The notes under the pieces were generated by a model. The model was not told the DNA's origin. It saw nothing but the letters and a program-made list of their open reading frames with translations, and searched no databases. A DNA stretch of 54,309 nt, taken from contig NW_008246080.1 in assembly GCF_000281045.1 (NCBI RefSeq), positions 710,845 to 765,153 on the forward strand. The letters run 5' to 3'. Position 1 is the first letter of the stretch, and each line of letters opens with the position of its first letter. Origin of the DNA: Saprolegnia diclina VS20. Taxonomy: Eukaryota > Oomycota > Saprolegniomycetes > Saprolegniales > Saprolegniaceae. A program made the position numbers and the translations under genes. This document shows, piece by piece, positions 2,948 through 54,000 of the stretch.

Positions 2948-5760
2948 TTAAATCGGGATTTTGTCGCCGTTGAGCTTGTAGTCCCAGCGCCGGCGAATGA
3001 GCTCGTGGAGCGACGTTTTGCCGAGCGTGGCCGCGATGCCGCCTTCGGTCACGTAGCTCACGAGCGAGTCGCGGGGCAAAGCGTAGAGATTCGCAAGTCC
3101 GTGCAGAAAATCAAAGTTGGCGTCCACGGACGGGTTGCGGTGCGGCCGAAACACTTGGCGGTAGGCGCTTATGTCCCTAGCCTCCATGTATCAACACTCT
3201 CCACTTGATACAAAAGGATACGTGAGGAGGACGCACGCGCCATCCGGATCAAATTTAAACCGCTTCATGTGCTGGATAAGCGTGTCCTTGAAGATGGCCG
3301 TGAGCCCCGTGATAAACTGTACTCGGTTCGTGAGCTCCTAACGTATTTTTCCACAGTTGAAACATTGAAACATTGAAAGAGGCATACGAGCGCGTCGGCC
3401 GCCACCGTTAGGAGCGGAGAGAGGTAGGCCACGACCTGCTTGCACGCCTTGGTCGTCGACAAGGACACGGCCCCCGTCTTGCTGAGAAAGTCCGACTTGT
3501 CCTGCGCCGCACTGTGCCAACGGAAACATGATGGTGATGAAGGGTATAAGCATTGCGCTACTATGCACCTCAAGATGGCGACGAGGCTCTTCTCGATGGC
3601 TAAGAACGTCTTTTGCAAGCCAAATGCCACGTGTCCTTCGAGTGTCTCAAGCGTTGTGCGCTTGGCTTCCACGCAGACCCTACCCTCGCATGGATAGATA
3701 TACACAAACCCATAGAGACATTTCATTTTAGCAACGTACGTTTGAACGGTCGGGGCACTCGTCAGCGCCGGCGCAATGCTCGCATGGTACTGACGGTCAA
3801 ACGACGCCACATGTTGAATCAAATGCTACGCACGTCCTGCGTACCGACGATCGAATGCGCGTCGAAAGTACCTTGAGAATGACAAAGAAGCGCGTCGCCG
3901 ACTCCATACAGAGCAGTGGTTCTTGCACGAGCTCGTGCGCGAGGTTGCACATTTTCTACGTATTTTCCCATTATTTTTCCGAATTTGCCCAATGTTTCAA
4001 AATTTGAGATGTACCGAGAGATAGGCATCGCCGATGGTCGCACAGTAGAGACCAAACGCTTTGACGTAAAAGTCGACGAGGAGGTCGCTCTTGTGCAAGA
4101 CAATGTCGCCGCGGGCCGTCGTTGCCTACGCCCAAAGCAGGTCATGCAACCCTACCCCTCCTTCCATTTTCAAATCGACCTCGAGCGCAGCGGCAAAGCG
4201 CGCCGGTACCGACGTGTCTTGTGCAATCGCCAGCAGCGTCTCGTAAAACTGCACGTCTTGCTTCTCGGCCTTGGTCTTTTCGGCTTTGGCCGCCGCTGAC
4301 GGACTCGACGGCGGCGTGTCACTCGCTGCTGCCTTGAGTTTGCTCTTGTTTTGCTTGCCAAATGGCGCGACAGGAAATTGCACGCTGTGCAACGTGGTCG
4401 CAAACGCTGTCTCGAGGAGCTCGAGCTCGATCGACATGTACGTGGCGCGGTGCGCGCCAAAGAGCGTCTGCAGCTGCGCTTCCAGGAAAGCATCCATGCG
4501 CGGGCGTTGATTGGGGTCGTCGATCAGCGCCGCGATCGCGTCCGTGAGCTTCTCTGCCTTCTCAAACGTCCACGTCAGCGTCTCGACGTAGGCCTGGGCG
4601 GGCGACGTCGTCAAGAGGCGCTCCAAATGCGACAAGATGCCGAACGCTGGGTCGTGATACAGCCGTGCCACGAGGGTCTCCCGGACGTACGCGACGACGC
4701 TGGATGGAAAGATGCGTGGTACGACTGCAAATTGCTGCTTGCAGATCGCGCGCAGCTTGGTACAGAGCGCGTCCATGTCTTGCGCTGGATCCACCGAGTC
4801 GAGCGCGAGACGATTCCTACGTCACCGCCATGGCACCCGCGTCCTTCTGACTGGGTATATAGAAATGTACTTGGTGAGTCGCTCCTGGATGATGTTCCAG
4901 ACGTAGCGGTCGGCAACCTTGTCCTTGCCATTGTACGCCAGCAGCGACTGGACGTTGAGCTGCATCGTCTCGAAGTCTTGCGAGTTGCCGACGCCGTGGA
5001 GCTCCTGCTCTTGCGCTTCACTGAACCCGTTCAAAAGGTCGGTCTCGATGCTCTGCGTGAGCCGGTCAATCTCGGCGATGGCACCTTGGGTCGCGGCCGA
5101 CGGTGTGAGCTCCTCGGCAAACTCTTGTAGCTTCTTGAGCACACGGCACGCCTACGCGGGATAAGCCACCGTGGATATATTCGCGCGTGGCGCACGTCGT
5201 GTATCTGGGTAGGGTCGCGTAGCGTGTTGAAGAGCTTGTTGGTCGTCTTCTTGGCGCTCACCGGCGCATTGAGCAGTTGAATGACTTCGAGGAGCTCGTT
5301 CGTCTCGAGGGCGCGGGACTTTTCCTTGTCAATGATGGCGAGCCGGTCGCCTAGCGCGTGGTATATGCATCTGTTCAGTAAGCAAGCATGTACCAATGAC
5401 GACGGCCGACGAGCTGACTTTGGTGAACCGATCTTCGAGCTCGTCCATCTCGCTGCACACCGTCTACGCAGCTTCGGTCGTGACGCTCGCAAGGCATGTC
5501 GGTACCTGCAACAGCCGCTCTGGTGCACGCAGGTTGTCGTGGTATCTGGCTGCCGCTGCTGCGCTCTGCTTGGTGAGGTCTGCAATCCTCGCGTTGAGGA
5601 CGTGGCGCTGCGACGTGAGCTTGTCAATCGTCGCCTGGAAGACTGCGTCCAAGCTGTGGAGGTCGCCGGTCGTCGCGCAGAGCTCGTCAAGCAGCACGTC
5701 GCACGAGTACTCGTCATCGGCGCCGGCGCCGAGGAGCTTGGCGAGCTCGGCGCTGGTCAT
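2948..5760 (-). CDS. SEC10: Exocyst complex component SEC10 (EXOC5)
   Basis: Twelve exons give 752 aa: 5506-5760, 5394-5463, 5196-5350, 4871-5151, 4180-4816, 4015-4125, 3872-3955, 3740-3825, 3569-3679, 3388-3511, 3222-3337 and 2948-3176. All exon phases agree. SEC10 is a subunit of the octameric exocyst, which tethers secretory vesicles to the plasma membrane. Sequence support: an N-terminal coiled coil (about residues 30-90), then the segment TDLLNGFSEAQEQ followed by YNGKDKVADRYV, and a C-terminus ending HGLANLYALPRDSLVSY, as in Sec10 proteins. Family length is 700-870 aa. Introns are 42-60 nt. The 54-nt intron 4126-4179 has a weak GTCGAT donor but is needed to remove an in-frame stop. Polarised vesicle traffic would suit a hyphal organism. 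Confidence 0.88.
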
Positions 5761-7026
5761 CTCGCCGCGTGGCACGATCTTTCCGGATAAAAATATCGAA
5801 GCCACAAATATATCAAATATATCGAACAATCTGTGCCACTTGTCGATTCTGAGTTGGCGAAGCGATGACGCGCCGTGGACGGCTGGCACTGAGCACCCTA
5901 CGACCACCTTCGCGCCAAGCGCCGGTCTCTGGATGGCTGTACGTACTGGCTGCTTGTCGAACGAGGGCCAGTGCGTGCGCCACCGTATTTTCCCTGAATT
6001 CGACGACCAGCCAGACCCAATAGCGACCGATGGTGGTCGTTTGTTGTCGGCCGAGAAAAGGCAGCGCTACGCACGCTACCCATGGACGGGCGCGCAGATT
6101 ACTGCATTGCTCAACTGGTTTCCCGGAGCATGCTGCCTGGCCACCAAGAGGGACTGCGTCGACATAGTCGTCGCGCTATCATCCCAAGGGTCCTGTGACC
6201 AGTCGCCATTGGCTACTCCTTGGGCTGGTGCTGGCCGACGGCCACGAACCTCGAACGGTCAATGCAAGATACTGAAAGAAGAGGACCAGAAGCATGGCTT
6301 CAACTTTTGGCCAGCATCCTAATTAGGCACATGCCGATGATTGGACGCTAGCATTCGGCATCGAGTTGCCGCGTCTCTGGGTCGCATTTTGGTGGCAGGA
6401 TGAGGAATGGCCTCGTCGCTGGTGTCGCAAGCGTCGGATGCGACGATGGATGACACGTCGTATGACATGGCTTTACTCTTCTGCAGTCGACTACAGTATT
6501 CGTACATGGTATACTGCCAAGACGACATACCCTGCCGTGGATCCAGCGGCTTGGAAAAACGCTGGTTTGAAACACTGTGTGGCACTCTGGCCCGTCCGCT
6601 CACGCGGCTGTAGCGCATCGCATTTGCGCGCCGAGAAGGTTCGATGACGAGCCCGCTCTCAGCGGCCGCTTCGAAACCCGATGAAGCAATGTAGAGATAG
6701 CCAGCGTCGCCATCGACGGGCGCCATAGATCGTGCACGTTGGTGATGCCCTCTTAAAATCGGCATGTGCCGCGAAATCCGAATTTCGGCAAGGTGTCTGG
6801 AATTTCCGGCCTTTTGATTGGTCCGTCGATAAAATTACAAACCGCGAGCACTGAAACCTCGGGCAAAGTACAGTACAAGTCGGTGGTTTCTCCAGTGTAC
6901 TAGATCCGCCGCCGAGGATCTCCGACAACGACGACGACGACGACGACGACCTCGACGCCTCCAGCAACTTGGCTCCCACTCGCTTCCTCGGCCCGCCCGT
7001 CCTCGTGGCCATCTTCCATCTTTGAC
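5761..7026. other. Divergent intergenic region between SEC10 and the dehydrogenase
   Basis: These 1.27 kb contain the divergent promoters of SEC10 and the first DadA-like gene. Open frames here (plus strand to 6322, minus strand 6319-6765) are rich in Arg, Ser, Pro and Ala and have no recognisable motif, so I do not call them. AT-rich sequence at 5785-5825 lies just upstream of the SEC10 start. A (GAC)n-like run at 6927-6955 precedes the dehydrogenase ATG. Confidence 0.4.
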
Positions 7027-8509
7027 ATGAGCGCCAGCAAGAACCACCGGTCGTCCGCGGCCATGCGGGGCATCGACGCGCCGCCCCGATCGGCCACGTG
7101 CCACCAACGCGTCGTCGTGCTAGGCGGTGGCATCATTGGCCTCACGACCTGCTACTATCTCGCCAAGCGCGGACACGAAGTCGTGTGCATCGAAAAGGAG
7201 AGCCAAGTCGGCATGCTCGCGTCCTTCAAGAATGGCACGTTCTTCGACTCGACGCTCTACAGCAGCTGGGCCGACTTTTCCGTGCTCTATCGCAAGCAGA
7301 TTCACGCGGGCACGTCGTCGCCCAAGGCCAAGTCCAAGCAAAAGGCCTTCCGCATCGAGGCGGCCGCGTGGATGGACCCGGCGTTCTGGTCGTGGGGCCT
7401 CAAGTTTATGACGAGCGCGACCAGCCGCCGGGCCAAAGACAATGGCCGCAAGATCCGCGACCTCGGCTTCTACAGCCAGCGCAAGCTCGACGAGCTCATT
7501 CGCATGCACCCCGAGATTGAAGAGGCCATGGAACAGACCGCCGAAGGCACGCTTGAAGTCTTCGAGTCGGCCGCCGAGCGCGACGAAGTGATGCACTCGG
7601 ACCGCATTTACCACTGCATGGAGTACCGCCTCCCGCTGCAGCCACTCGACGCCAAGGACGCGGCCTGCGTCGAGCCCGCGCTGGCCAAGTCGGTGCTCGC
7701 ACCCGGGGCTATCTACTCGGCCACTGGCACCAACGGTGCGTCTCGTGTCACCCTCGCTCTTTCGACGCCGATTGCGTTCTTGTAGGCGACGTGCACAAGA
7801 CGTGTCTGGCCATGTGGCAGCTCTGCCGGCAGCACGGCGTCATGTTCCGCTTCAACACGGACATCACTGACATCCTCATCGTCGACAACCGCGTCGTGGC
7901 CGTCCAAGCCCACGACGGCGACCTCATTGAAGGCGACTCGTTCGTGCTCGCGCTCGGCAACCACACACCGGCGGTCGCCAAGCTCGCCGGCGTCAAACTG
8001 CCCATGTACCCCGTCAAGGTAGGATGCGTACACCGAACCTCGTCTCTGATCGCGTTGCGGGGTAGGGGTATGTGCTGAGTGTCCCGCGCAACGAAGCGTT
8101 CCCGCCGCTCACGTGCAACGTGTACGCCGGTGGGAACGCCCTCGTGTCGCCCATGGCCGACGGCTCGCTGCGGATATCGGGCGGCGCGGACTTTGCCGGG
8201 TTCAACTACAAGAGCGACCCGAAGCGGGTCAAGTGGCTCTTGAAGCAGGCCAAGCACCTCTTCCCCGAGACGTACCTCGACGAGGCCAAGCTCGAGTCGC
8301 ACGTGTGTCTTCGGCCGGTCAGCGCGGACGACGTGCCGTTCATTGGCCAAACGCTCGTCGACAACCTCTTTGTCAACACGGGTCATGGCTCCAAGGGCTG
8401 GACGCTCTCGTTCGGGTCCGGCGCGCTCCTCGCCGACCAGATCAGCGGCCGGACACCCGAGATCAACATTGAAAAGTACTCGCCGTTGCGCTTTGGCCTC
8501 TTTAGTTAG
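7027..8509 (+). CDS. DadA-like FAD-dependent D-amino acid dehydrogenase, intron-containing copy
   Basis: Three exons, 7027-7735, 7786-8018 and 8066-8509, give 461 aa. The FAD/NAD-binding Rossmann motif VVVLGGGIIGLTTCYYLAKR lies near residue 30. DadA-type landmarks follow: DFMLRFNT-like MFRFNTDIT, MYPVKGYVLSVP, LRPVSADDVPFIGQT and a C-terminal GHGSKGWTLSFGSGALLADQ. Family members oxidise D-amino acids to 2-oxo acids, usually passing electrons to a quinone chain; substrate and acceptor here are inferred. No presequence is evident. The intronless paralogue 0.9 kb downstream on the other strand is read as an uninterrupted protein across both intron positions, which validates the splicing. Overall similarity to bacterial DadA suggests bacterial ancestry, untested. 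Confidence 0.85.
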
Positions 8510-9399: not shown

Positions 9400-10800
9400 C
9401 TAGGGTTGGGGTTGCGTCGTCGCAAAGAGGCCAAAGCGCAACGGCGAGTACTTTTCAATGTTGATCTCGGGCGCGCGGCCGCTGATTTGGTCGGCGAGGA
9501 GCGCGCCGGCGCCAAACGCGAGTGTCCAGCCCCGCGAGCCGTGGCCGGCGTTGATAAATAAGTTTTCGATAAGCGTCTGGCCGATCAGCGGCACTTCGTC
9601 GGCGCTCACCGGCCGCAGACACACCTGCGTCGTCATCTTGGCTTCGTCGAGGTACCCGTCGGGAAAGCACTTTTTGGCGTGCGAGAGCAAGGACGCGACG
9701 CGCTTGGCGTCCTTCTTGTAGTTGAAGCCCGTGATGTCGGCGCCGCCCGAGATGCGAACCATGTCGTCGCGCTCGGGCGAGATGAGCGCTTGCCCGCCCG
9801 CATAGACGTTGCACTTGAGCGGCGTCGCATTCGGTGTCGTCGGCACGCGCAGCACGTAGCCTTTGATCGGGTACATGGGCAGCTTGACGCCGGCGAGCTT
9901 GGCAACCGACGACGTGTGGTTGCCGAGCGCCAAGACAAACGAATCGCCCTCGATCAGGTCGCCGTTCCGGACTTGGACGGCCACGACGCGGTCGTCGACG
10001 ACGAGAACGTCTTCGATCTCGGTATTGCAGCGGAACATGACGCCGTGTCGCTTGCAGAGCTGCGCGAGCGCAAGGCACGTCTTGTGCACGTCGCCGTTGG
10101 TACCAATGGGCGAAAACATGGCGCCGAGCCGGATCGCATCCGGGCGCAGCGCCGGCTCAATTGCGCGGCCCTCGGTCGCGTCGACGGGCTGCAGCGGGTA
10201 TCGGTACTCCATGCAGTGCTTGATGCGGTCCGAGTCCATGATCTCTTCGGCCGTGCTCGCGGCCGCAAAGAGCTCGAGCGTACCTTCGGCGACCGAGTCG
10301 AGCTCGTCCTCGAGCTCCGGGAACATGCGGAAGAGCTCTTGCAGCTTGCGCTGGCTGTAAAAGTCGAGGTCGCGCGTCTTGCGCATGTTGTCCTTGGCCT
10401 TCTTGCTCGACATGTTGAGCATAAACTTGACGCCCCACGACCAAAAAGACGGGTCGAGCCATGCGCGCGGGTGCACGCGGAACGGCTTGTGCTTGGCGTG
10501 GTGCTTCTGGTACAGAAGCGACATGTCGGCCCAGCTCGAGTAGAGCGTCGCGTCAAAGTACGTGCCGTCGTTGGCCGCGGACGCTGTGCAGCCGACGCTG
10601 GCCTCGCGCTCGATGCAGACGACCTCGTGGCCCTTGCGCGCAAGGTAGTAGCACGTTGCTAGACCGACGATGCCGCCGCCGCACACAACGACGCGGTGCG
10701 GCTGGGCCAGGACGCGTGGCGCGTCAAAGCCTCTTGTGACCGCGGACCCGCGGTGGGTGCGACCTTTCATCGGCGGCCGAATTCGAGGAATGGCGTCCAT
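9400..10800 (-). CDS. DadA-like FAD-dependent D-amino acid dehydrogenase, intronless copy
   Basis: A single uninterrupted frame of 466 aa from the ATG at 10798-10800 (the frame extends upstream only through a TTG). It is a close paralogue of the gene at 7027-8509: VVVCGGGIVGLATCYYLARK for FAD binding, MYPIKGYVLRVP, LRPVSADEVPLIGQT, GHGSRGWTLAFGAGALLADQ, and nearly identical ends (INIEKYSPLRFGLF). The N-terminal 40 residues are basic and hydroxylated (MDAIPRIRPPMKGRTHRG) and differ from the paralogue, so the two may differ in location. Predicted reaction: oxidative deamination of D-amino acids. Lack of introns in a window where almost every long gene is spliced is notable; it could be retroposed, or the other copy may have gained introns. 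Confidence 0.85.
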   Translation of the reverse strand: MDAIPRIRPPMKGRTHRGSAVTRGFDAPRVLAQPHRVVVCGGGIVGLATCYYLARKGHEVVCIEREASVGCTASAANDGTYFDATLYSSWADMSLLYQKHHAKHKPFRVHPRAWLDPSFWSWGVKFMLNMSSKKAKDNMRKTRDLDFYSQRKLQELFRMFPELEDELDSVAEGTLELFAAASTAEEIMDSDRIKHCMEYRYPLQPVDATEGRAIEPALRPDAIRLGAMFSPIGTNGDVHKTCLALAQLCKRHGVMFRCNTEIEDVLVVDDRVVAVQVRNGDLIEGDSFVLALGNHTSSVAKLAGVKLPMYPIKGYVLRVPTTPNATPLKCNVYAGGQALISPERDDMVRISGGADITGFNYKKDAKRVASLLSHAKKCFPDGYLDEAKMTTQVCLRPVSADEVPLIGQTLIENLFINAGHGSRGWTLAFGAGALLADQISGRAPEINIEKYSPLRFGLFATTQPQP

Positions 10801-10987
10801 CGTGTAGTATGCAGTACGAGTCGTACTGGAGAAGCCAGGCAGCAATTGAGGCCGTCGTCGTACAGTGTACTGGCCTCTCTGGCGGCCACCACAGGTTCAA
10901 AGGTGCACTCGCCGTGACCAACGTCCTCACTTACTTTGCACTTTCTATCGAACACCACTTACACTGTAAAACTTCGGCGCTTGTCGC

Positions 10988-14209: not shown

Positions 14210-15972
14210 ATGTTCGCCGCCGCCCGCGCCCATGTCCTCCGCCGCACCGCTGCCCGCCGCTTCTCGTCGGCGTGGGAGAAGCCCTTCCCGTCGATCCTCG
14301 TACGTGCAGCATGGAACGACGTAGGCAAGTTGACAAGCGCTCTGTGTAGATTGCCAAGGACAGCGTGTCGGCGCAAGGCTCGTTTGCCGAGGCGCAAGCC
14401 ACGTACTTGCAGCCCAACATGGCGTCCGTGAAGGAGCTCGACGCGCTCCTCGAGAAGAAGAAGCTCGGGATCGTGGCGCATTTTTACATGGACCCGGAGC
14501 TCCAAGGCGTCCTCTCGTCGCTCAAGTGGCCGCACACGCTGGTCGCAGACTCGCTTGCGATGGGCGAAGCCGCGGCCGTCATGGCCAAGAACGGCGCCAA
14601 GGCCGTCGCATGCCTCGGCGTCGACTTTATGTCGGAGAGCGTCCGTGCCAACTTGGATTCGAACGGCTTCCATGACATTCCCGTCTACCGTCTCTCGAAG
14701 AAGAAGATTGGGTGCAGCTTGGCCGAGTCGGCCGAGAAGGCTGCGTACATGGCGTACCTGACCAAGGCCGCGGCGACGCCCAACAGCCTCCACGTGGTGT
14801 ACATCAACACGTCGCTCAAGAGCAAGGCGTGGGCCCACAACATCATCCCGACCATCACGTGCACCTCGTCCAACGTCGTTCAGACGATTTTGCACGCCGA
14901 TGCGCAGATCCCGGGCCTCAACATCTGGTACGCTCCGCTCTTAGCGCGATGATCATGGCTGAGTTGTTGCCTAGGTATGGCCCGGACACGTACATGGGCG
15001 AGAACCTCGAGCAGATGTTCCGCCATTTGGCGACCTTGCCGGACGAGAAGATTCGCCAGATCCACCCCAAGCACACGAGCAAGACGTACGTAATGACTTT
15101 GGACGCATCTGGATCCTCATCATTGGCGCTTTGTGTAGCATCACGTCGCTTCTCAAGCGCTTCGACTACTTTAAGGAAGGCAACTGCGTCGTGCACCACA
15201 TGTTTGGCGACAAGGTCGACAATATTGTCTATCCTTTTGACTCAATTTTGGTATCTAGGTCACGCAGCGCGTCCGGGAGCAGTACAGCGACGTGTACCAA
15301 ACTGCCCATTTTGAAGTGCCCGGCGAGATGTTTACGCTCGCGATGGAGGCCCAGAACCAAGGCCGCGGCGTGGTCGGCTCGACGTCCAACATTCTCAACT
15401 TTATCAAGGCCAAGACCAACGACGCGATCGCGGCCAACTCGAGCGAGAAGCTGCGCTTTGTGCTCGGCACGGAGGCCGGCATGATCACGTCGATCGTGCG
15501 CGGTGTGCAGCAGACGCTCCAAGCGAGCACGGGCTCGTCGACGCCGCAAGTTGAAATCATCTTTCCTGTCGCCGCCGATGCGATCGCCAAGGACGACGAG
15601 AACAACGTGGTGCCTGGTGTCCAAGGCGGCGAAGGCTGCTCGACCGCCGGTGGCTGCGCGACGTGTCCGTTCATGAAGATGAACGACTTGGACGCGCTCT
15701 TTGACGTCGTCGAAGGCGTCGACCTCAGCGCGCCGACGGACCCACTCGCGGCCTACCACCCGCAGACGTACAGCGAGCGCATCCACGGCAAGACCATCTC
15801 GCAGGTTGGGGTCGCGCCCATTTTGCACATGCGTTCGTTCATGGAGGTACGACGACGCTACCTTGCGCTGGTTGACTAATTGATGGTGTAGAACCAGCGC
15901 TTGTCGGACGCATTGGTCAAGGACATTGCGACCCGGACGCCGGGCGCCGGGTGCCCGGAGGCGCGCGCCTAA
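14210..15972 (+). CDS. nadA: Quinolinate synthase (NadA), probably mitochondrial
   Basis: Six exons, 14210-14299, 14350-14927, 14975-15085, 15139-15214, 15259-15846 and 15892-15972, give 507 aa with consistent phases. Quinolinate synthase condenses iminoaspartate with dihydroxyacetone phosphate to quinolinate, the prokaryotic and plant route to NAD. Visible family marks: AHFYMDPELQ near the start of the domain, LVADSLAMGEAA, a Cys in VACLGVDFMSE, CTSSNVVQTIL, and the C-terminal GGCATCPFMKMND. The three [4Fe-4S] ligands are thus in place. Exon 1 encodes MFAAARAHVLRRTAARRFSS, a basic, acid-free presequence typical of mitochondria. There is no SufE domain as in plant plastid enzymes. The intron 15215-15258 has a GTCGAC donor; the others start GTAC. 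Confidence 0.93.
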
Positions 15973-20582: not shown

Positions 20583-21576
20583 GCTGCCATCACCTCGGCG
20601 CGTCTCGGATTACGTCATCGGTTATTTTTGAATGAACGCCCGGCAGATATGCGATGTGGGAGGTACTTGCGTGCGAATAGCCACTAGAGATTGCTCGTGA
20701 CGTTGTACAGTATTTCCGGGTGCAACAGGATGACTGGATTACTGTGCAGCGTTCGAGAAGGGAGGTTTGGAATCTGCCATCTATATACACAAGGCGACGT
20801 ATGCGAATCGTCGGCTACGTACTACCGGTAGTACCGGCGATGCTATCGCATCTTGGTGCAGTCAAAGGTTCATTCTGGGAGGATCTCGCACCATCGAAAC
20901 GAGCGGATTCGAAAATCAACGGAAATTAGTGTGTCGACGTGAGCCCGTCACGCACAGGATGAAGTTGAACTTGGGCGCATAAAGGCACGTGAGGCGCTCC
21001 GTGTCTCCTTGTCGCAACCGACTCGCAATTCCTTAAAGATCAACAAGCAGACAATTCGTAGCCATCCACCTCGATACGGTAGCTGCCACGAGGCGCTGCA
21101 ACGGGCCGCGATTTGCTGTTAAGGGTGTACTTAGTAGTTCTCAATGTGACGGTCAAGTGGGTTCCAAAGGCTGTAGCGTTGGTATCGCATCCGGTCCTTC
21201 CTTTTGTGCTGGACACAAATCGCTACGTATCGCTCCTGCGACAAAGATAGCATATCTTACGAAGAGTACTGTAGTCGACGAGGGGCTCGCAAGTCGACTG
21301 GCCTCGGTCGAGCACTCAAGGAGAAGCCACGAGCGATCTTTGGCACTTGGTTGACACGCACACTAATTCGTGTGACTAATCGGAGGCAGAAACAGGATCT
21401 GGAGCTTGGCGTTTGTATCCCGGGAACCGCGATGCGATAAAATACGAAAATACTGTGTAAAATCGAAAATAAAATAAAAACACGCCATTTTCAAGCCAAA
21501 GTGAGCCGGTGGCGGCTCCCTCTCTAAATTTATACTGCTGCATTCGGTTCAGCGCGAGCGCAGTAGCGGATCCGGC
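20583..21576. other. Intergenic, nothing recognisable
   Basis: One kilobase without a supported gene. AT-rich sequence at 21440-21535, including a TTTATAC near 21529, is a plausible core promoter for the following ankyrin-like gene. Confidence 0.4.
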
Positions 21577-22632
21577 ATGAACACGAAGAAGCTGTACATC
21601 CACCCGGCAGAGGACATGGCGAAGAAGTCGCCGGTCAACATGGTCGAGCACATGCTCACGTCGTCGCCCAAGCGCGCCCGGCGCGAGGACCACCGGCTCG
21701 ACGCGCTCTTTGCGTCCGTGCTCTGCGACCCGTTCATGTTTGAGCACATCCTGCTCTACTGCCGTGGCATCAAGACCAAGCATTGGGTGAACGCGATCCT
21801 CGCAGCGCGGTCCGGCAACCTCTTCATTCTGCAGTTCCGCGGTCCGCAGCTCAAGTACAACGCGTACGTCTTTAGCGAAGCGAGCGCGCATGGCCACCTC
21901 GCCATTGTCGACTGGTGCCACAAACACAACCATCCGGGCTGCACGACCGACGCGATGGACTACGCGGCGCGCGCGGGCCACTTGCACATTGTACAGTACC
22001 TCCATGCCCATCGCCGCGAAGGCTGCACGAAGCGGGCGATGGACTTTGCCGCGCTGAAAGGCCACCTCCATGTCGTCCAGTGGCTCCATGCGCACCGCAA
22101 CGAGGGCTGCACGACCGAGGCCATGAACGGCGCGGCCTTTGGCGGCCACCTCGAGATCGTCCAGTGGCTCCACGAGCACCGCCGCGAGGGCTGCACGCCC
22201 GAGGCCATGGACGCGGCGGCCGCAAACGGCCACTTTCACATTGTCAAGTACCTCCATGCCAATCGCCGCGAGGGCTGCACAAACAAGGCGATGGATCTGT
22301 CGGCCAAGCACGGCCACAAGCACATCCTCCAGTGGCTGCACAAGCACCGCTGGGAAGGCGCGTCCGTGCGCGCCATGGACTACGCCGCGCAGAGCGGGCA
22401 CTTGGAGATCTTGCAGTGGCTGCATGCGCACCGCCGCGAGGGCTGCACGACCAAGGCGATGGACTGGGCGGCCGGCCAAGGCAACCTCACCATCTTCCGC
22501 TGGCTCCACGAGAACCGCAACGAGGGCTGCACGATCCATGGCGTCGCCGAGGCGTTCAAGCAAGGCCACACGTCCATCATGCAGTTCATCCGCGAAAACG
22601 GTATTTATGGCGTCCACACGTTCCTCGTCTAG
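21577..22632 (+). CDS. Ankyrin-like protein with 28-residue tandem repeats
   Basis: A single-exon gene of 351 aa. After about 115 N-terminal residues, including a basic segment (SPKRARRED), the protein is a chain of near-identical 28-residue units of the form GCTxxAMDxAAxxGHLxIVQ-WLHAHRxE, about eight copies to residue 335. They resemble ankyrin repeats (GHLxIVxWL core helix) but are five residues shorter than the 33-residue canon. Tandem families with this repeat are abundant in oomycete genomes. Likely a protein-interaction scaffold; the partner is unknown. No signal peptide or membrane segment. A long antisense frame (21376-22830) is a codon-bias shadow. Confidence 0.88.
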   Translation: MNTKKLYIHPAEDMAKKSPVNMVEHMLTSSPKRARREDHRLDALFASVLCDPFMFEHILLYCRGIKTKHWVNAILAARSGNLFILQFRGPQLKYNAYVFSEASAHGHLAIVDWCHKHNHPGCTTDAMDYAARAGHLHIVQYLHAHRREGCTKRAMDFAALKGHLHVVQWLHAHRNEGCTTEAMNGAAFGGHLEIVQWLHEHRREGCTPEAMDAAAANGHFHIVKYLHANRREGCTNKAMDLSAKHGHKHILQWLHKHRWEGASVRAMDYAAQSGHLEILQWLHAHRREGCTTKAMDWAAGQGNLTIFRWLHENRNEGCTIHGVAEAFKQGHTSIMQFIRENGIYGVHTFLV

Positions 22633-23256
22633 GAAGAAGCTAGCTTGGAGCTTGAGTAAATATGGTATATATCGACGATTGCCACCGAGGGCGCTTCTTC
22701 TTCTTGCCACGTGGTCGATGTTGTCCTCGGTCTTCGACGTCGATGGCGTCGGGATTGGCTGACGCAGCTGGGCTCCTCGAGCTTTTGCAAGAGTTCCGCT
22801 GCGAACCAAGGTGTTTGTCCTCCGCTCCAAGCAGGTTTGCTGGGCCAGCGCACAAGGCAGTGCTCGGGTGCTCGGGTGTGTTGGTGGTGCATGTGATATT
22901 ACGGTATTTTGCTCACTTTACTGGTATTTGTACGGTGTTATTCCGGCCGGTCGATATAACACTATTTAACGTCAAATGCACCCACCTCGCTGGGACTGCA
23001 GTCGTAAAGCAGCGTGCCATTATTGTGGGCCGCTTGCTGCACCTTATTCTTGTGGCACCTTTTGTAGTACTGTACGTGGCCACGACTCGACGTCGTAGGG
23101 TTGTTGCCATGACGTCTCGTTCGTCTCGATACCAACGCGATGAGAAAATGCACACTATACAATGACAAATATACGCAAATAGTATGCTCGCAAAACGACA
23201 AGGGAGCGTGGGTTTAGTCGAGGAATTCCTGTGGGCTCCATCCGACCTGGCCGACC
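22633..23256. other. Intergenic, nothing recognisable
   Basis: This 0.6 kb spacer lies between the ankyrin-like gene and TAF2. It is AT-richer from 22880 onward. No gene or repeat supported. Confidence 0.4.
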
Positions 23257-27404: not shown

Positions 27405-30400
27405 ATGAACAACGCGGGCGACGAGAGCGTCGCCGCTGTTCTCGAGACGCTCCATGCAATGAAGCCCGAGAAGGCGAAGCAGCGCGCCGCCTCGCGCCTG
27501 CCTCCGTACCGTGGCACCCCCGTTGTACGCTTCTTCTCCATCATCTTCGTCTTATATGTTGACGACGATGATGGCAGAGAGCCGCGAGCACGAGCAGTTT
27601 GGTCCCGCGCCTTCGCAAGCCGATCGAGAAGCCCGTGCGTCGCTTGTCTGCCCGTGCAATCGTTTGAGAAGAATGTGTAGGATGCCCTCACGCGGTCGCA
27701 GGAGCTGCAGGTGGCGGTCACCGACCTCACACAGCGCTTGCGTGACAAGAGCGACCAGTGCGACGAGCTCCATAGCTGTGTGAGCCGACTCAACAAGGAG
27801 CTGCGCCTCTCGGTACGCCGATATAGAGTGACCTCAGTGCGACGATATGGCGTAGGTGGACCAGGCCTCGCTCCTCCAGCACGCAGCGGCCGAAAAGGAC
27901 AAGGAGATTCAGACGCTGCGGGCGCACGTGGATGACTTGTACCAAGTGCAGCAGCAGCTCCGCGCGGAGAGTCTCCAGTCCAAGGCCGCGCTCACCCGTC
28001 GGCAGTCGGAGGGCATAATGGTGCTGCCACCGCCGCCCGAAGCCGACGAGATGCCGGTGCGACGGACGTCCGTGGCGCTCGACGAGACGATGGAGTGTCT
28101 CCGCCTCGAACTCGGTCAACTCGAAGCGCAGTGCCAAGCGCAGTCCAGTGAGCTGACGCGGTCGACGGCCGAGAACGCGGCGCTGCTCGCGTCGATGCGG
28201 CAGTGGCATGCGATGCTGTCGCTGCCGCCCCTTGATGTCCGTGCTGCTGCTCGCCTCTTTGCAAAAGCTCACGAAATACGCTAGGCGGACGAGGGACTCC
28301 ACGAGGCGTTGACGCAGGCGCTGGCGCAGGATACTTCGGCACAACGCCGTCGTCACGATCAGCTTGTAGCAACCTGCGACGCCCAACGCAAGGAGCTTCT
28401 CGCGTTTCGTCTCGAGAAGGCACTGCAGCGTCGGTGCCGCGTGACCACCGACTCGATCTACGACTTGGAGGCGCACGTCGAGGCTTTGGCCGCGGCAAAT
28501 GCGCAGTTGGCGGACGCTGCGCAGAACGAAGCGGCGAGAAGTGAGCTCTGGGCGACGCAATGTAGCGTCGTGCAAGAAGCCCTCGAGGCGCTGAGCGACC
28601 GGTGGGAGGCCTCGCTCGAGGACGAGCGGCAGGCGGCCGACGAAAAGCTCAGCGCTGCCCACGAGCATATTGAAGCGGTTGAGCAGCAGCTGCACGACGA
28701 GGCTAGAGACCACGAAGCGGTGCTGGAGGCGTACGCAGCGTGCCAAGACGATCTCGTCCAGGCCCAAGAGGCACTGAATGCGGCGACAAACCACTGCGAA
28801 TTTGTGCAGAGCCAGCTCCAGAAGCTTCAGGTGACGCGCTGCCAGGCGCGCTGCCACTGCTGTGACGAGAGCACGCAAACAACGGCGACAACATTGGCAT
28901 CGCCATCCACGTCTTGCCAAGAAGACGTCAACAACAACGATGCGACAAGTACAACTTTACGTGGCTTCCTGGCGGCGGGCGGCGTTGTCTCGGTGGTTAT
29001 GGACGGTGCCAGCGTCCTCCCCGGTGACGAAAGCACTCCAAGCATCAACAGCGGTGACGCCACCGCTGCGAGCCACGACAATGAGAATGACACGACAGAA
29101 GAACGTAAGCAAGGACCTTCGCCGGTCAAGGCGACGTCCCAGTGGATCACCGTGATTGAAGCGATGCAGGCCAACCACGAGCTGGAGCTCGACGTCCTTC
29201 GGTCTGACGTCGCAGACGCGCTTGCCAAGCTCGCAGCGCGCGACGCCGAGGTCGACCAGCTCGTCTTGGACCTCGAGGCGAGCCACTGCGCAGCGGGGAA
29301 GCTGCGCGTCGACTATGACGTGGCAGCGGGTGATGGCCCGTGGGAACGCACGACGTTTCCGCACACACCGGGCGGTCGTCTCCTTGCGGTCGCGTGCGAG
29401 TCTTTTGCAAGCGCCGACTGCGAGAGCCACACCGAGCGGATGGCACCAATGGCGGTCGTGCGCATCGACGACAACTCGCCTCCACAAGAAGTCACAACCG
29501 CGCTCGAAGCGCGCGCGCTTGAAATGGCTCTCGAAGAGCTGGAGCTGGCCCACGCCGACGTCGAGTCGCACCGCGCCTGCGTGCGCGATGTTCAGATGCA
29601 GCTTCTGGCGACAGAATCGCAGCTCGCGTCGGCCGTCGAAACGAATCACATGCAGGCGGAAGAGACAGCATACCATCGCAAATACCTCCTCCCGAGCTCC
29701 ACACCCAACCACGTCGGTGATAGCCGCACCCAGATGGAGCAACTTGGCATGCACTTGGAAGACCTCAGCGCGACGTTACTGGCCCATACGGCGTCTGCCG
29801 ATGCGACTCAAAGGGCAATGTCGCATCTGCAAGGCGAGGCAGCCGTGCTGTCGACTCGTGTTGCCGAGGCCGACGCCCGCCTTGGACTGCTCACATCGGC
29901 GGCGAACAACGCAGAAATGACCATTTTTTCGCTGCAAATCAGCACAGCAACGCAAGACGCCGCGCTCGTCGAGGCCAACGCTGCGCTCGACAAGCAAACG
30001 ATGGAGCTCGCGACCTGCCACGCTGAGAACGCTAGCGCCCACGCTCGCCTCGCGGCGCTTGTGACCGACCACGCGGCGACCCTCGCGCAAATGGAACAGC
30101 GCGCGATGCAGAGCGAAGAGTTGTCGCCAGTACCAGGTTTGCAAGACCTTATTACACGCCAAGAGATGTGCTTGGCCACGATGGCGGAAGAGAAAATTGC
30201 ACTCCTAGATCACTTGCGCGCGCAAGCGACCGAGTTGCAACAGCTGCTCTCGCCAGACGCGCCACCGTTGGGTAGCAAGGCTGACGAAGCCCGTCCGACG
30301 CTGCTTCTGCACCAAGAGCTTGTCCAGGAACTCCAGTCTCTCGTGCGCACCTTGCAGTACGACGTTGAAATGTACAAGGCGACGATCGCAACTCTGGAGG

Positions 30401-32132
30401 CGGACCGTCGCGTGCTCACGTGCGAAGACGACGAGTGGCCGCGCCGCATCGAGCTCTCGGCCGAGATTCGAGCGCCAATGGCCACCGATGACGGCGACTT
30501 TGGTCCGTGGGAGTCGGACACGGACGAGTCGCCATGCCTGGAGCGCAGGCTCTGGACGATTCCCGAGACGAATGACGACGTCGAGGGTGACGAGAGCGAC
30601 GTTGCTGATACCTCCGTAAGCCCCAGCGCTGGATCGGGAACAGAGCTAGCAGCGCTACGCTCCGAGCTGGAGCGTGCGACTGGCGATCTGATGACGGCGC
30701 CGATGAACACGGAGGTGCTGCAGCGCCTTGCCAACCACCTCGACCAGCACAACGATGCACTGCATTCGACGAGCGAGTCCGAGTCTGAGATTGTGGCGCT
30801 TCTGCACCACACCCAGAGCCTCCTTACACGTGTCCTCACGACGGCGGCGACAGCCAACGATCCGGTGGCAACTGACAACAACAACACCGACAACGACGAC
30901 GATGACGACGACGGCGAGACGGACAACGACACGACGCCCGACGAGGCCGAGTGTCGCATTTGTTGCTGGGATGCCGTAGACGCGTCGACGACTGACATTG
31001 GTGGTGTCGACAGTGAGGAGCCAGCACCCATCGGGGTTGTCGTGGTGCACATCGGCAGCCACGAGATCCAGGCTGGCGTTGTACGGAGTGGCACAAGCCC
31101 GAACCTTCCCGACCTCCGGCTCCTGGTACACTGAATATGTTCTGACAAACCGACCTCGCCGCCTCTGCTTATAGGCCAAGCACGTTGACACGCGGACGCC
31201 TGCGGTGCGTACCCCGCTCGTCCTAGCCGATGCCAACCTATTTACATAGGAACCGCTCCTGCGCCTCGGTGCGATCCAGGACTTTGACGCGTTCGAGGCG
31301 ACGCTGCGCCGCGTCTTTTCGCTCTTGCAGGTGGCGCCGCCATTGTACAAGGTACTTGCGCGAATGTCTTCCAATGTCACCAAGGTCGTTCATTGAACTA
31401 GATGATTCTCTTGCACAAACCGTCCATCTCGCCGCTCGAGAAGGAGCGCCTCGTCGACATCGCCATTGAGCACTGCCATGCATCGAGCGTCAACCTCGTG
31501 ACGTACGCCCAAGTCGCGCTCGTGGCCGCCGGACGCCACACGGGCCTCGTCGTCGATCTGGGCGTCGACACGCTCTACGTGGTGCCCATCTTTGAAGACA
31601 TGGTGGTACGTCCACCGAAGTCTATCGTCGACAAGTGCAAGTGTTCGACTAGCTCGAACATGCCGTCGTCAAGCTCGCGCTCGCGTCGCCCGTGTGGACA
31701 GCCTCCGAGACGCCCGAGACCGCGCTCGACCGCCTCTTTGCACCCGACGCCGCGCAGTGTAGGCCATCGGACGCCACCACTCGTTTGAATGCGTACCGCT
31801 GTGTAGGCGCCATGGGCGTCGTGACTGCGATCCTCCAAGTGCTGGGGCTATCGACGCCTGTGATCCATGGCACGCTCGTACGTCACATCGTATTGACCGG
31901 CGGCCCGGCGTCCGTCGCCGGTCTCGCGGATCGCCTGCATCGCGAGCTCACCGAGTGCGTCGCATCCATCGACACGGTGCCGCACCCGACGCTGATCCAA
32001 GTCCACGTCGCGCCAGAGACCCTCTACCACGGCGCGGTCGTCCACGCGCAGAAGCTCTCGTCGCACAAGTGGATCACACGCGCCGACGTGCGCCACGACG
32101 GCGCGGCCATCGTGCATACGAAATGCTTTTAA
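27405..32132 (+). CDS. Long coiled-coil protein fused to a C-terminal actin-like domain
   Basis: Nine exons, 27405-27524, 27578-27634, 27681-27812, 27856-28236, 28285-31125, 31175-31204, 31250-31351, 31402-31605 and 31653-32132, give about 1448 aa. Residues ~60-1090 are Ala/Glu/Leu-rich heptad-type coiled coil. An Asp/Asn-rich linker follows (~1095-1140). From ~1144 the protein is actin-like: VVVVHIGSHEIQAGVVRSG (phosphate loop 1), GLVVDLGVDTLYVVPIFEDM (loop 2), HIVLTGGPASVAGLADRLHR (adenosine region), and HKWITRADVRHDGAAIVHTK-CF, matching actin's end [20 protein letters not shown]. The domain is about 305 aa versus 375 in actin, and the loop-1 Asp and part of loop 2 are replaced, so nucleotide binding may be lost. 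A 48-nt segment, 31759-31806, may be an extra intron (GTAGGC...GTAG); either choice keeps frame. The long exon 5 contains coiled coil, linker and the actin start without interruption. Confidence 0.85.
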
Positions 32133-48082: not shown

Positions 48083-51000
48083 ATGAGTGCACCGATACGA
48101 CGACTGTGGGGGCTCGTGCTGCTGCTGTGGACGACGATCCCCTGCGTTGCTCAGGCGTGTTCGCTCTCGGCGATCGTGGCGGACACGGCGGGCGTCATCC
48201 GTGACCGGACACTCCAAGGAAGAGACAACTACGAGACTGGTATCCACTGCCACTGGCAGATTGCGACGTCAGCACCCGGCACGATCGTCGAGCTCACGTT
48301 CACGCTACTGAATCTCGTTGCTCGTGACGGTGAAAGCAACGACGTCGTGCTTGTGAACCTTGGCCTTGGCGCCGTCGCCCCCGCCGGATGGCGGCAGTAT
48401 ACTCGTCCAGTCGACCTCCAAGGTTTTGACGGTGTTGGTTCTTTTGCGTATGCAACGAGCTCGCTTGCCGAAGACACGTGCAATCAAAGCCGATCTTTTG
48501 ACTCGGTTTTGTGTGATTTGACGTACGGATCGCTGCTCACTGACACGGCGCGCAGTGCGTCGTGGATATACTTTTCGGGCAAAGACGTCGGCGGCGCGAT
48601 CTCGATGCTGTCGACGGCGCCAAATGTCTACGTGATCTACCGGTCGTTCCTCTCCACGTCCCCCGGCGCCGGACTCGATTCGTCCTCGGTCTCCGGCATG
48701 ATGGCCCGCTACGAGTTTGGTATGTTCAAAGCGTCAATGGGATGCGGACCAACGAATAATCCTAGTGCACACCTTGTGCAGCAGCGATGGTGTCGTGTCG
48801 CCGCAGCTGTCGGTCGCCTATGATACAACACCAATGCAGCGCCTCCGATACTTCAGCCACAACAAGCCATACACGACATGCTCGTGGTTGCTGCAGCCAC
48901 GACGATTCGACGCGGCTACTGGCAACCTTGCGCTCTTTGACTCGATCTGGTTGCATCTTGGCTCGTTGGAGCTACTCGGGGTGTCCGAGGTTACAATGTA
49001 AACTCTCTCAGAAAATGTGGCGTCTGGCGATTTGAACATGGCGGCTCTAGATACGACGGCGCGTCGACCAACGCAACGGTCCTCGCCAAGTTTTCGAGCG
49101 GGAGCCCGTCGCTGCCAACGTCCTTCCTCCAAACCGGCGTAGGATCCCTCCAAACCGGCCAAGGATCTCTCTTTCTCACGTTCGCGTTTGTGGATGGCAT
49201 CGACGCCACCGGGTTCTCTATGTCGTGGCAAGCAGGTCGGCAAAAGAATGGGACTATCTCAGATCTGATTCGACCCCGTAGCGTCCTGTTCCAATGAATG
49301 CATGGGGAGTCATACCACGTGCATTCGCGGTGAATGTGTTTGCCTTCCCGACTGGTCAGGGACGTTGTGTGACACACGCGGCGGGCGTCGGCTCACCGAC
49401 ATCAACGACCTGATGCCGCGGCAATACTACGTGGCGCCCAGTAGCTACGCCCCAAGCGATGGAGCTAGCGGCCTCGGCACCCGCGAATCGCCGTTTACGA
49501 GCTCCTTTGCTTACTTGTTTGAGAACGTTCTGCGCGACGGCGACATGCTCACGCTCTTTCCCGGGCGGTATCAAGGCACTGGGTACTGCGGACTCACATT
49601 TCCAACGAGCATTTATGTCACGTCGTTGAGCGGCCCGGCGTGGACCCTAGTCGCGTGCCAAGGAATCTCGCGCGGCTGGCTTCTTACACACACCAAAGGC
49701 CTCTCGGTGATCCGCGGTCTCTCGTTCACCGGCTGCGCGGTATGTCATTGCAAGTTGAAAATCGAAGTGCCTATGGGTGTAGACTCCGATGTCGCCGCTG
49801 TTTGGAGTGGCCCTGTACATCGGCGGCAACGCCTCGATTGAAAACTGCCGCTTTTACGGCAACCAATTCGCGGGCCAAGGCACGGTGGCCGTCGTCGCGC
49901 CCAGTGTCACGACGCTGCGCGGGTGTACATTTGATAGCAACGTTGCGACCGTCGGTGCCGCCGTAGCTGTGCTCTCGGCCACCGCGATTCTTGACAACTG
50001 CACGATCCATGCCAACAACGCCACGCTGAGCGGTGCGGTCTTTGTCTCGACATCTGTATCGACGTCGACCACGCTGCACAATCCATCGACCGTCACCATC
50101 TCCGCCTGCACCTTCACGCGCAACTTCGCCAGCAGCGTTGTCGAAGCCGCGCTGACTGCCAACCAAGCCAGCGTTGTCACGATCGTCAACAGTACCTTTC
50201 GAAGCAACCTTGGCGGCGCGATCGGCCTGGACGCTGCGTACGCCACGATCAACAACTCGGTGATCACGGGTAACGCTGGTTTGGGTGTTAACGCGGTCAA
50301 GACGCAGCTCCACGTGTCGACTACAGTGTTTGGTGACAACAAGGGCGCTGACAAGGGCGGCGGCCTTCGCGCCGAGACGTCGACAGTACGCAGCGTGAGC
50401 AATATGTTTACTGGCAACGCTGCTGTGGTCGCTGGCGGCGGCGTCTATCTCCTCAATTCGTCTTTTGAGGATGCAATGAGCGTATATAAGAGCAACACCG
50501 TGGGCACGAATGCCGACGCCACCAACCGAGGTCTCGGTGGTGCACTCTACGCGCTCAACTGCTACGATACTACGACGCTGCAACCGCTGATTGTGATCAC
50601 CAATGGCACGTTTCAGGCGAACAAAGCGCTGTTTGGTGGTGCCGGTGCGTCGTTCTACTCGATGTCAACCTCATCTCTGCCTATAGTATATTTGGAGCAG
50701 TCGTATACGCTGCTCCAACAGAGTGTGTTTCAATGGAACAAGGCGACGACATTCGGTGGTGCACTCATGGTGACGACCACACGCACCCCAAGCACCCGCA
50801 TGCACGTCCTCCTCCTCGACAGCAATCTGTACGACAGCAACAGCGGCGGATCTGGCGGCGGAAGTCTCTATGTCTCGTCATCCGACTCAGTGTCAACGAC
50901 AAACGACGTGTTTGTTCGCAGCCGTTCGTACGGGACAGGCGGTGCGATTATGCTTGTGGCGGCCTTGGTCTCTGTCAAAAACGGAACGTTTCTCGAAACT

Positions 51001-54000
51001 TCTAGTACGACGGACGGTGGTGCCATCTACGCCGACTCCACCTCTGGCGTCTTCATTGTCGACTCCAATTTTACGTCGTGCGTCGCCTACCGTCACGGCG
51101 GCAGCGTCTACGTGTCGTCCCAACTCATCGTCATCATCAATGTCACAATGACAAACGTACGAGGATGCTATCCTAGTTTACGTGGCTAAGGATGATGTAG
51201 AGTATGGCGTTTAAGTACGGCGGCAGCGTCGTGATCCAGTCGGTCACCCAAACAGCCTATTTTCGGAACATTGCCATCACTACTTCGTCGGCGTCCAAGG
51301 GTGGGGCGTTCTACATCATCGACTCCACTATCAGCGAAACCATTTTCAACGTCTCGATCACCAACACGACGGCCAGAACGATGGGCGGCGCCATGTACCT
51401 CGTGCTTGCAAACTTGACCATCGACCACCTCACGACGAATGGAACGATGGCGGACATTGGCGGCATGATGTCACTTGAAGAATCGGTGGTCGTGTTGTCC
51501 AACGCCAGCATTGTCAAGGCGACAGCAACTGCGAGCGGCGGTGCTTTCTACTCGATCATCTCGAACCTCACTTTGCAGTCCAGTGTCGTCGACCAACACA
51601 GCGCAAGTGCCAACGGTGGCGCGATCTACGGCTTCTCAAGCACCGTGATGCTCCGAGACACACGGCTCGCGCAGAATTCAGCAGCTGCCGGGGGCGCTAT
51701 CGCTGTCGTCTCTTCGACTGTCAATGCGCTGCGCGCTAATTTCGCCCACAACCGTGCTCTCACGGGCGGCGCCCTCAGCGCTGACCTCTCGCACATTACG
51801 CTGGATACGTCAGTGCTGGACGCAAACGCCGCATCTGGGCTTGGTGGTGCCCTCGCTGTTTCCTTCAACTCGCTCACACTGCTTCGCTCGTTGCTGCGCG
51901 ATAACGTGGCCGCCGTCGGTGGCGCCATTTCCGTGTCCAACCTCGCAATGTTCAATCTGAGCTCGAGTCGCTTTGACAACAACTCAGTACTCTCGACGTC
52001 CAGTGTCGCTGCCCAAGGCGGTGCGATCAGCATCACTACGATCACAAACGCGTCGTTTGTGACCAACTGCTCCTTTCACGACAACCGCGCCGAGGCTGCC
52101 AAAGGTGGTGCGATCTACACTTCAATGGGCAGTGCGTTGACACCGCCGACGATCAGCATCGACTCGTCAATTTTTGAACAGAGTCGCAGTGGTTACGGCG
52201 GCGCACTCTACCTCGAAAACGCGCCCACCTTCCTATCGAGGTCACGCTGGACCAACAACATGGCGACGACCGGTGGCGGTGGTGGCATTTACTGGACCGG
52301 CAACGAGCCACAAGCGTTGGACAGCCAAGAATACATAAACAACTACGCTGTGTATGGACCCAACGTGGCGTCGCTACCACATGGCCTGCAGCCGCACTAC
52401 ACACCGCCACCGACGGATGGTGTCACGACCGGCGAAACCAGTGGCCAGGTGTTTGCCGGAACCTTGGTTGTGCACGTCGTGGTACGTTTGCTCTGATACG
52501 TTTGCTCTACCTCTGCGGTAGCCACACCAAGATACGATGTAGGACAAGTACGGTCAAGTTGTGACGACGGACAATGAGACACAAGTCGCGCTGACCAGTC
52601 TCACGACCTCGGCGCTCATCGCGGGAGTGGGCAAGGCCACGGCGGTGCGCGGCATTTGCAATTTCTCCTCGTCTGGCGTTCAATTTACACCAGGTATGGT
52701 CCCTTGAGTACGTCGGGGTTTGGTTCGAGTGCCGCGGTAGGGTTCAACATGACCTTGGCAGTCACTGGTGGCGGCCTTGTGCCACAAAACAATGTCGAAG
52801 TGCATCTTCGGAGGTGCGTCCGCGGTGAAGTGCTTCCGCAAGGCGTTGCGCAGTGCATCAAATGTCCTGTCGGGCAGTTTAGCTGGAATGCCAGTGAGAT
52901 GGCGTGTCAAGAGTGCCCCAATGGTGCCATCTGCAGCGGCGGTGACAGCATCCAAGCCAAAGACGGCTACTGGCGGTTTCCCAACTCGACTGGCGTCTGC
53001 ACCTCGCCCCCCTACGATGGATGCAGTCTCAAGGAGTGTCTGGCAAGCGCATGCAACGGACTGCTCCGCAACAACTACTTGGCATATGCCAACCCGCTTG
53101 TCAACGGAACAATGAGCTTGATCTTGCCCTCAAATGCCTCTGGCTATGAGGTCAATGACACACTGTACGTAGAAGGCGCTACGTACTCGGTGGTGGGGTC
53201 GTCCATGGTATCGTTACCGCTCTCAACTCAACTCCAGCTTTTCGTCACGGGGAGTACACCACTGCCCAACACAGGTGACCCCACTTGTTTTCAACACCCA
53301 AGGATTCAATGACCTATTTCTTATGCATAGGCAGCGTTGCCATCTACAAGGTGCAGCCCGAGACGTGCAAGCCGGGCTTCACCGGGCACCTCTGCTTTAA
53401 GTGTGCCCACGGCTACACGCGCAGTGGCAAGACCGACTGCGCTGCGTGCCCAAGCAATTACACGTTGACGGTTCTGGTTCTTATTGGCGGCGTGGTTCTC
53501 TGCGTCGGTTACGCCACCATACTCATCATGATGGCCATCAACAAGTCGCGGACGAAAATCGGTTTGCTTTCGATCCTCACCAAGATCTTGACGTCGCACG
53601 TGCAACTCGTGGGTCTGGCCGGGTCGTTCGACTTGCCATGGCCCGACATCGCAGCGTCCATGTTCACCACACAGAGCGCAGCGTTCAATCCGGCCGGCAA
53701 GCTCATCTCGATCAACTGCCTCCTGAGCCGCTACAAGGCACAGCTGTCACCAGCCGCGACAAGCCTCTCACCGTACTACGAGCAGCTGCTTATGTACCTC
53801 TGCCTCCCGCTTCTCTGTATTGTCGCCCCGATCGCGTTTTGGCAGCTCAAATGCTTCTTTGCAGTCCGGCGCATCGAGCGTACGGCGTGGCCAGCGCGGC
53901 TACGAGCCAACCTCGATCGCGGCCCCGAAGAGCTGGTCCTCGACACTGAAATCGAAGATATTTTGCGCGCAGTCGGCGAAGACCCGAGCGATATTGTCCT

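Follow-up and report, generated by a model that had tools for sequence, protein, structure and literature searches.

A long coiled-coil protein ending in a reduced actin-like domain in Saprolegnia diclina and related water moulds

Gene structure and domain order of SDRG_05228

The window analysed here, a stretch of 54,309 nucleotides (positions 710845-765153 of contig NW_008246080.1, C13 in our numbering, in the 54.15 Mb assembly of Saprolegnia diclina VS20), carries the gene SDRG_05228, which encodes a discontinuous coiled-coil rod followed by a divergent actin-like domain. The gene lies on the + strand directly downstream of TAF2, whose stop codon precedes its start codon by 230 bases, and comprises ten exons, from the ATG at 27405 to a stop codon ending at 32132, separated by nine introns of 43-53 bases, all with GT-AG borders. 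The predicted product of 1432 residues is identical, letter for letter, to the annotated SDRG_05228 protein, an agreement with the annotation that does not amount to transcript evidence. An earlier note on this DNA had given a length of 1448 residues; the 16 extra residues arose because an in-frame intron of 48 bases (31759..31806) had been left in, and they have no counterpart in the annotated protein or in the Achlya and Thraustotheca orthologues.

The first exon (27405..27524) encodes a disordered N-terminus (residues 1-40), and is followed by exons 2 (27578..27634, residues 41-59), 3 (27681..27812, residues 60-103), in which the first and best-conserved helix begins (61-153 in the structure model), and 4 (27856..28236, residues 104-230). 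Exon 5 (28285..31125, residues 231-1177) encodes, in a single frame, most of the rod, an acidic low-complexity linker (30847..30951, residues 1085-1119) and the first 33 actin-like residues. With introns included, the rod spans 27684..30468 (residues 61-958) and the actin-like domain, or head, spans 31027..32132 (residues 1145-1432). The head is completed by exons 6 (31175..31204), 7 (31250..31351), 8 (31402..31605), 9 (31653..31758) and 10 (31807..32132), the last of which ends in IVHTKCF and the stop codon.

This domain order could in principle result from a gene model in which two neighbouring genes have been joined. A join of this kind does exist in the Thraustotheca clavata record, which begins with the C-terminal part of TAF2 and continues into the SDRG_05228 orthologue; since TAF2 also lies upstream in the window, this record points to a conserved gene order and, in all likelihood, to two genes joined by annotation. 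No other support for such a merger was found. The rod and the start of the actin-like domain share one exon and one frame, and the same order is present in four species and in a paralogue, SDRG_10804. A two-gene join is rejected at the sequence level on these grounds, retaining a next to negligible probability, and the single gene with a true fusion described in the earlier note is upheld.

The C-terminal domain is a reduced member of the actin superfamily

The Pfam Actin model (PF00022) matched the C-terminus of SDRG_05228 with 97.6 bits, against a curated cut-off of 27, and those of the orthologues P0003 and P0004 with 102.5 and 74.5 bits, placing the domain within the actin family, as had been proposed, and not outside it. 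Structure prediction of the domain yielded a high-confidence model with an actin fold core. Its closest structure and sequence matches, among the matches listed (60 + 50), were all actins or actin-containing complexes; that actin-related proteins (ARPs) are missing from these matches decides nothing. The structure alignment covered 7 of the 12 proteins found (P0002, P0006, P0010, P0011 and P0012 were left out).

We refer to SDRG_05228 and its orthologues as group A. Of what we take to be the ATP-site set of actin (Asp11, Lys18, Gln137, Asp154 and Asp157), a single residue, Asp154, is kept in all three aligned group A sequences. Phosphate loop 1 presents His1152 (codon 31048..31050) at the position of Asp11, and phosphate loop 2 (31555..31569, residues 1273-1277) reads DLGVD, with Asp154 kept and valine in place of Asp157, in agreement with the altered loops of a divergent actin homologue noted earlier. 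In the same sequences, 10-12 of the 37 positions of subdomain 2 and 19-20 of the 89 positions of subdomain 4 are filled, and 66-76 of 265 positions are identical to the genome's own actin. The head had been thought to be some 70 residues short; the truncation is real, and that figure is inexact. By homology, the head is a member of the actin superfamily that has neither the full set of ATP-site residues nor the four subdomains of a conventional, ATP-binding actin or ARP, and it is probably ATP-free. The loss of the catalytic loops suggests a non-catalytic and probably non-polymerising role, consistent with the structural function envisaged in the earlier note. None of the present findings points specifically to the ciliary or centrosomal tether that the note gave as an example.

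The rod is predicted to form a broken coiled coil

A structure model of residues 1-1127, built from four sequences and of low confidence (mean predicted local distance difference test score, pLDDT, 53.5; predicted template modelling score, pTM, 0.23), contained nine helices of 38-136 residues between positions 61 and 958, 667 residues in total, and no globular domain. In a heptad-path test with scoring values set by the analyst, the ten helical segments of the rod gave a combined z of 8.3, with p < 0.05 in eight of them; the actin domains of the two paralogues gave z of 0.04 and -1.1. When the window length was fixed at 60 residues, scores of 6.3 to 9.0 were obtained for the rods of P0001, P0003, P0004, P0005, P0008 and P0009. 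A Fourier periodicity scan of the SDRG_05228 protein gave a weaker signal than the heptad-path test (p < 0.05 in 8 of 66 windows). SDRG_05228 thus presents, in a low-confidence model, the long helices with heptad periodicity of long coiled-coil cytoskeletal proteins. Together, the helix model and the heptad tests indicate an interrupted coiled coil of about 900 residues instead of the continuous one of about 1100 originally described.

A fold search with the low-confidence rod model returned no match at E <= 0.001, and no myosin motor domain was detected among the Pfam matches of SDRG_05228 to E 0.1. Weak Pfam matches in the rods (DUF7801, E 0.0027; Rab11-FIP3, E 0.00057; GAS, E 0.0007) all fell below their cut-offs and were dismissed as coiled-coil noise.

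The architecture is conserved within the Saprolegniales

A full-length search with SDRG_05228 matched 4 of 7690 scored candidates, Saprolegniales records only, and revealed this architecture also in S. parasitica (SPRG_08411), Achlya hypogyna (ACHHYP_00816) and T. clavata. The SPRG_08411 protein (P0002) departs from the family alignment within the head and terminates with 16 residues unlike those of the other members, which may reflect a wrong gene model or a true truncation. In the three orthologues, identity to SDRG_05228 was 85, 56 and 44% over the actin-like domain versus 78, 40 and 29% over the rod, the head being the more conserved part in each pair. The reading frame, the splice layout and the C-terminus (IVHTKCF/IVHTRCF) are maintained across three genera.

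The two full-length searches, with SDRG_05228 and with its paralogue, scored only candidates sharing most words with the query. No relatives from Phytophthora, Pythium or Albugo surfaced in them, which is not proof of absence, and neither search found a group A orthologue in Aphanomyces. When only the head served as query, against proteins of 0.55-1.75 times its length, no unfused close relative was found (0 of 7764 candidates scored); because the search requires shared 5-residue words, this absence is weak evidence. The fusion is a real, conserved and lineage-specific protein architecture, and appears to represent a genuine, as yet uncharacterised, family of cytoskeletal proteins instead of an annotation slip.

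A full-headed paralogue and the position of the family among actins

The closest other match in the S. diclina genome was a spliced gene on C37 encoding 1471 residues, SDRG_10804. Its product comprises a disordered N-terminus, a coiled coil and a complete actin domain (Pfam positions 6-410 of 410). A full-length search matched 8 of 7991 scored candidates, again Saprolegniales records only, and identified orthologues in S. parasitica, Achlya and two Aphanomyces species, which together with SDRG_10804 constitute the paralogue group. All are annotated as hypothetical, the Achlya protein being called actin-like in one source. P0010-P0012 are apparently alternative annotations of the A. astaci gene; P0008 and P0010 share 84% identity along their length and differ mostly in missing exons. 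P0005-P0008 begin with IPSYLRSTSSS-like motifs, with VPSYMRQT-like ones further on, and these four records, as far as Aphanomyces, agree in both.

SDRG_10804 resembles SDRG_05228 in its succession of disordered N-terminus or rod, coiled coil and actin domain ending in KCF, and in having lost the same ATP-site residues. It differs in possessing subdomains 2 and 4 and an extra disordered N-terminal region with the IPSYLR/VPSYMR-like motifs. The actin parts of both genes share intron positions (after LRLL/LKLP, before MILLHK/VIVTHK and after FEDMV/YEDMI), a phase 1 intron before a last exon of 326 bases, and an exon of 204 bases before the third matching intron, exon 5 of SDRG_10804 being the counterpart of exon 8 of SDRG_05228. 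The exons of the subdomain 2 region measure 99 and 189 bases in the paralogue versus 30 (exon 6, a remnant of this subdomain) and 102 (exon 7) in SDRG_05228. Likewise, subdomain 4 occupies three exons in SDRG_10804 (141, 146 and 113 bases, 400 in all), where SDRG_05228 has the 106 bases of exon 9. Because actins in general and the paralogue possess subdomains 2 and 4, the difference is best read as a loss in group A.

A third member was found in C38:494500-501500 (local positions 4267 to about 2480, - strand), consisting of a short N-terminal region with, as judged by eye, one predicted-looking helix, and of a highly divergent actin-like domain with similarity to P0005 (E 1e-14) and to P0001 (E 1e-10). 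The model of its 3' end is uncertain. This gene, too, contains an exon of 204 bases flanked by introns at positions corresponding to those in SDRG_05228 and SDRG_10804. Divergent to it lies an open frame (4395-5291, +) whose start resembles its N-terminal region (34% over 101 residues, E 2e-06), possibly a diverged copy without an actin part.

Eleven genome loci had Actin matches. Trees were inferred from 8 of the 12 proteins (P0002, P0010, P0011 and P0012 were left out) and seven genome loci; the C38 gene entered the 16-row tree only and C2 none. In the 16-row tree, the group A heads, the paralogue heads and the C38 gene were separated from actin, Arp1 and five other actin-type loci with 100/100 support, as was group A itself. 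When C38 was omitted and the columns were restricted to those occupied in 90% or more of the rows, the family was again separated from the other actin-type loci at 100/100. A topology uniting group A with the actin of the genome was rejected (p-AU 7.4e-06 in the approximately unbiased test, the group having been named after the first tree was seen). A clade of the paralogue group by itself was not rejected (p-AU 0.37), and group A may have arisen either inside or beside it.

The branch to the group A heads measures 0.78-0.89 changes per column, faster than for the paralogue heads. This rate, the disappearance of two subdomains and of the ATP site, and the SPRG_08411 record that stops within the head would all fit a decaying remnant, in which function rests with the rod and the actin domain is on its way to being lost. 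The frame, splice layout and C-terminus kept across three genera, the higher conservation of the head than of the rod in each pair and the high-confidence head model speak against such decay, which we consider unlikely.

Among the remaining loci, C1 corresponds to Arp1 (341 bits versus 300 for the best actin), and C4 and C87 are presumably Arp2 and Arp3. An actin-like gene near actin was also observed at C22:510586-511793 (282 bits to the best PDB actin), with Asp11, Lys18 and Gln137 kept and Glu/His at 154/157. In dynactin, Arp10/11 terminates the Arp1 filament, according to the part of the survey cited here (PMC3583065), and the loss of the pointed half would fit such a cap, so that SDRG_05228 might be the Arp11/Arp10 of this lineage with a fused arm. 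An 85-residue, unspliced piece at C2, however, best matches Arp10/11 chains (44 bits versus 25 for the best actin), and the same part of the survey reports an oomycete Arp11. SDRG_05228 is thus not needed as Arp11, and this identity is very improbable.

A proposed nucleotide-independent binding head on a coiled-coil scaffold

Helix prediction and heptad periodicity on the one hand, and homology and predicted fold on the other, suggest that SDRG_05228 is an elongated scaffold, with a broken coiled-coil rod and a C-terminal pseudo-actin head. The head would derive from a full actin domain like that of SDRG_10804, most ATP-site residues having been lost first, in the family as a whole, and the greater part of subdomains 2 and 4 (the pointed-end half) afterwards, on the group A branch, leaving the barbed-end half (subdomains 1 and 3). 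Such a head would neither hydrolyse ATP nor take a place inside a filament. A dimeric rod would display heads in pairs and link their partner, for which actin, the paralogue or an actin-binding protein are candidates, to whatever the rod holds. To this reading, in which a coiled-coil scaffold presents a head that binds its partner independently of nucleotide, we assign a probability of roughly 0.6.

The longest conserved stretches of the head correspond to actin 105-118 and 160-178. The latter, which contains the subdomain 3 W-loop on the barbed face, is the best conserved region of the head, invariant at 14 of 19 positions in group A (p 0.0016) and at 10 of 19 over group A and the paralogue (0 of 5000 draws). 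A bolder version would seat the barbed face of the head at the pointed end of a filament of actin or of an ARP, barring addition and anchoring or capping the filament by tying its end to the scaffold. A rod-and-head cytoskeletal family of the Saprolegniales would then have arisen from an actin lacking its ATP site. This pointed-end cap is speculative, and rather improbable.

Several observations weigh against the binding-head reading or its bolder version. The 160-178 set was picked after the alignment had been seen, and the set of barbed subdomain 3 residues used here showed no higher conservation than the remainder of the head (7 of 20, p 0.70). Partner-binding cleft positions of actin differ in the head, where the conserved residues (His346, Lys355) are not those of actin. 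The head retains Asp154 and Gly156 and may still have some nucleotide binding. The rod model is of low confidence, and the rods of group A and the paralogue have no significant similarity (best E 0.21), so that a single fusion origin is not proven, one fusion followed by divergence being likely. Given the unenriched barbed set and the non-actin cleft, the general reading is preferred and the pointed-end cap is kept as its bold version.

The head might instead be an orphan pseudo-actin that recruits not actin but actin-binding proteins of the profilin, cofilin, WH2 or formin type, as a decoy surface on the scaffold. The strong conservation of the W-loop region is compatible with this role, as is the enrichment of the cleft set within group A (17 of 30, p 0.022). 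That set is unenriched over group A and the paralogue (6 of 30, p 0.25), the conserved cleft residues His346 and Lys355 are not those of actin, and the sets were either defined on general background or picked post hoc; we regard the decoy as possible, if doubtful.

The family illustrates how far an actin domain can be trimmed with its core still conserved, and the full-headed paralogue provides a natural control within one genome. Should the head still bind filament ends or actin-binding proteins without ATP, SDRG_05228 would be a simple protein with which to study actin's binding surfaces apart from the ATPase cycle, and a lineage-specific component of a cytoskeleton, that of water moulds, about which little is known.

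Other features of the window

Elsewhere in the window, positions 14350-14949 (+, with frames to about 15879) encode a quinolinate synthase NadA domain (Pfam E 3e-17), here in an oomycete. Two similar FAD-dependent oxidoreductase (DAO) genes adjoin in opposite orientation at 6904-8509 (+) and 9400-10896 (-), the Pfam check covering 6904-7782 and 9403-10896. A stop-free frame of 513 residues (21376-22917, -) lies antisense to an ankyrin-repeat gene (21505-22632, +) and is probably an effect of the G+C-rich repeat. Long beta-helix-type repeat frames occupy 49783-52496 (+; Pfam Beta_helix E 1.6e-15 over 49783-51186), and the next frame runs past the window end.

Comparison with known systems

The earlier note knew of no described ARP with this architecture. 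This holds for oomycetes, no coiled-coil-plus-actin protein of theirs being described in the literature searched (open-licence PubMed Central only), but N-terminal fusions to actin domains have precedents. Dictyostelium filactin, in the part of its description cited (PMC2441452), likewise has a C-terminal actin domain behind a long N-terminal extension; unlike the SDRG_05228 head, with two subdomains gone, that domain is highly homologous to conventional actin. Conventional actin itself has the ATP-site residues and pointed half that the head is without. Dynactin Arp10/Arp11, which the cited part of the survey (PMC3583065) describes as a very divergent ARP at the pointed end of the Arp1 filament, offers a works-like comparison only; the genome appears to have its own Arp11 (C2) and Arp1 (C1).

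Plant ARP8/SUSA2 also combines an N-terminal partner domain with a C-terminal divergent actin domain. The partner is an F-box instead of a coiled coil (no F-box was detected among the Pfam matches of SDRG_05228 to E 0.1), and subdomain loss is unmentioned in the passages cited (PMC7562919). According to the same passages, its function remains intact after changes at nucleotide-site residues, and ARP8/SUSA2 thereby provides a precedent, by analogy, for an actin fold serving as a binding surface, showing that a use of this kind is possible.
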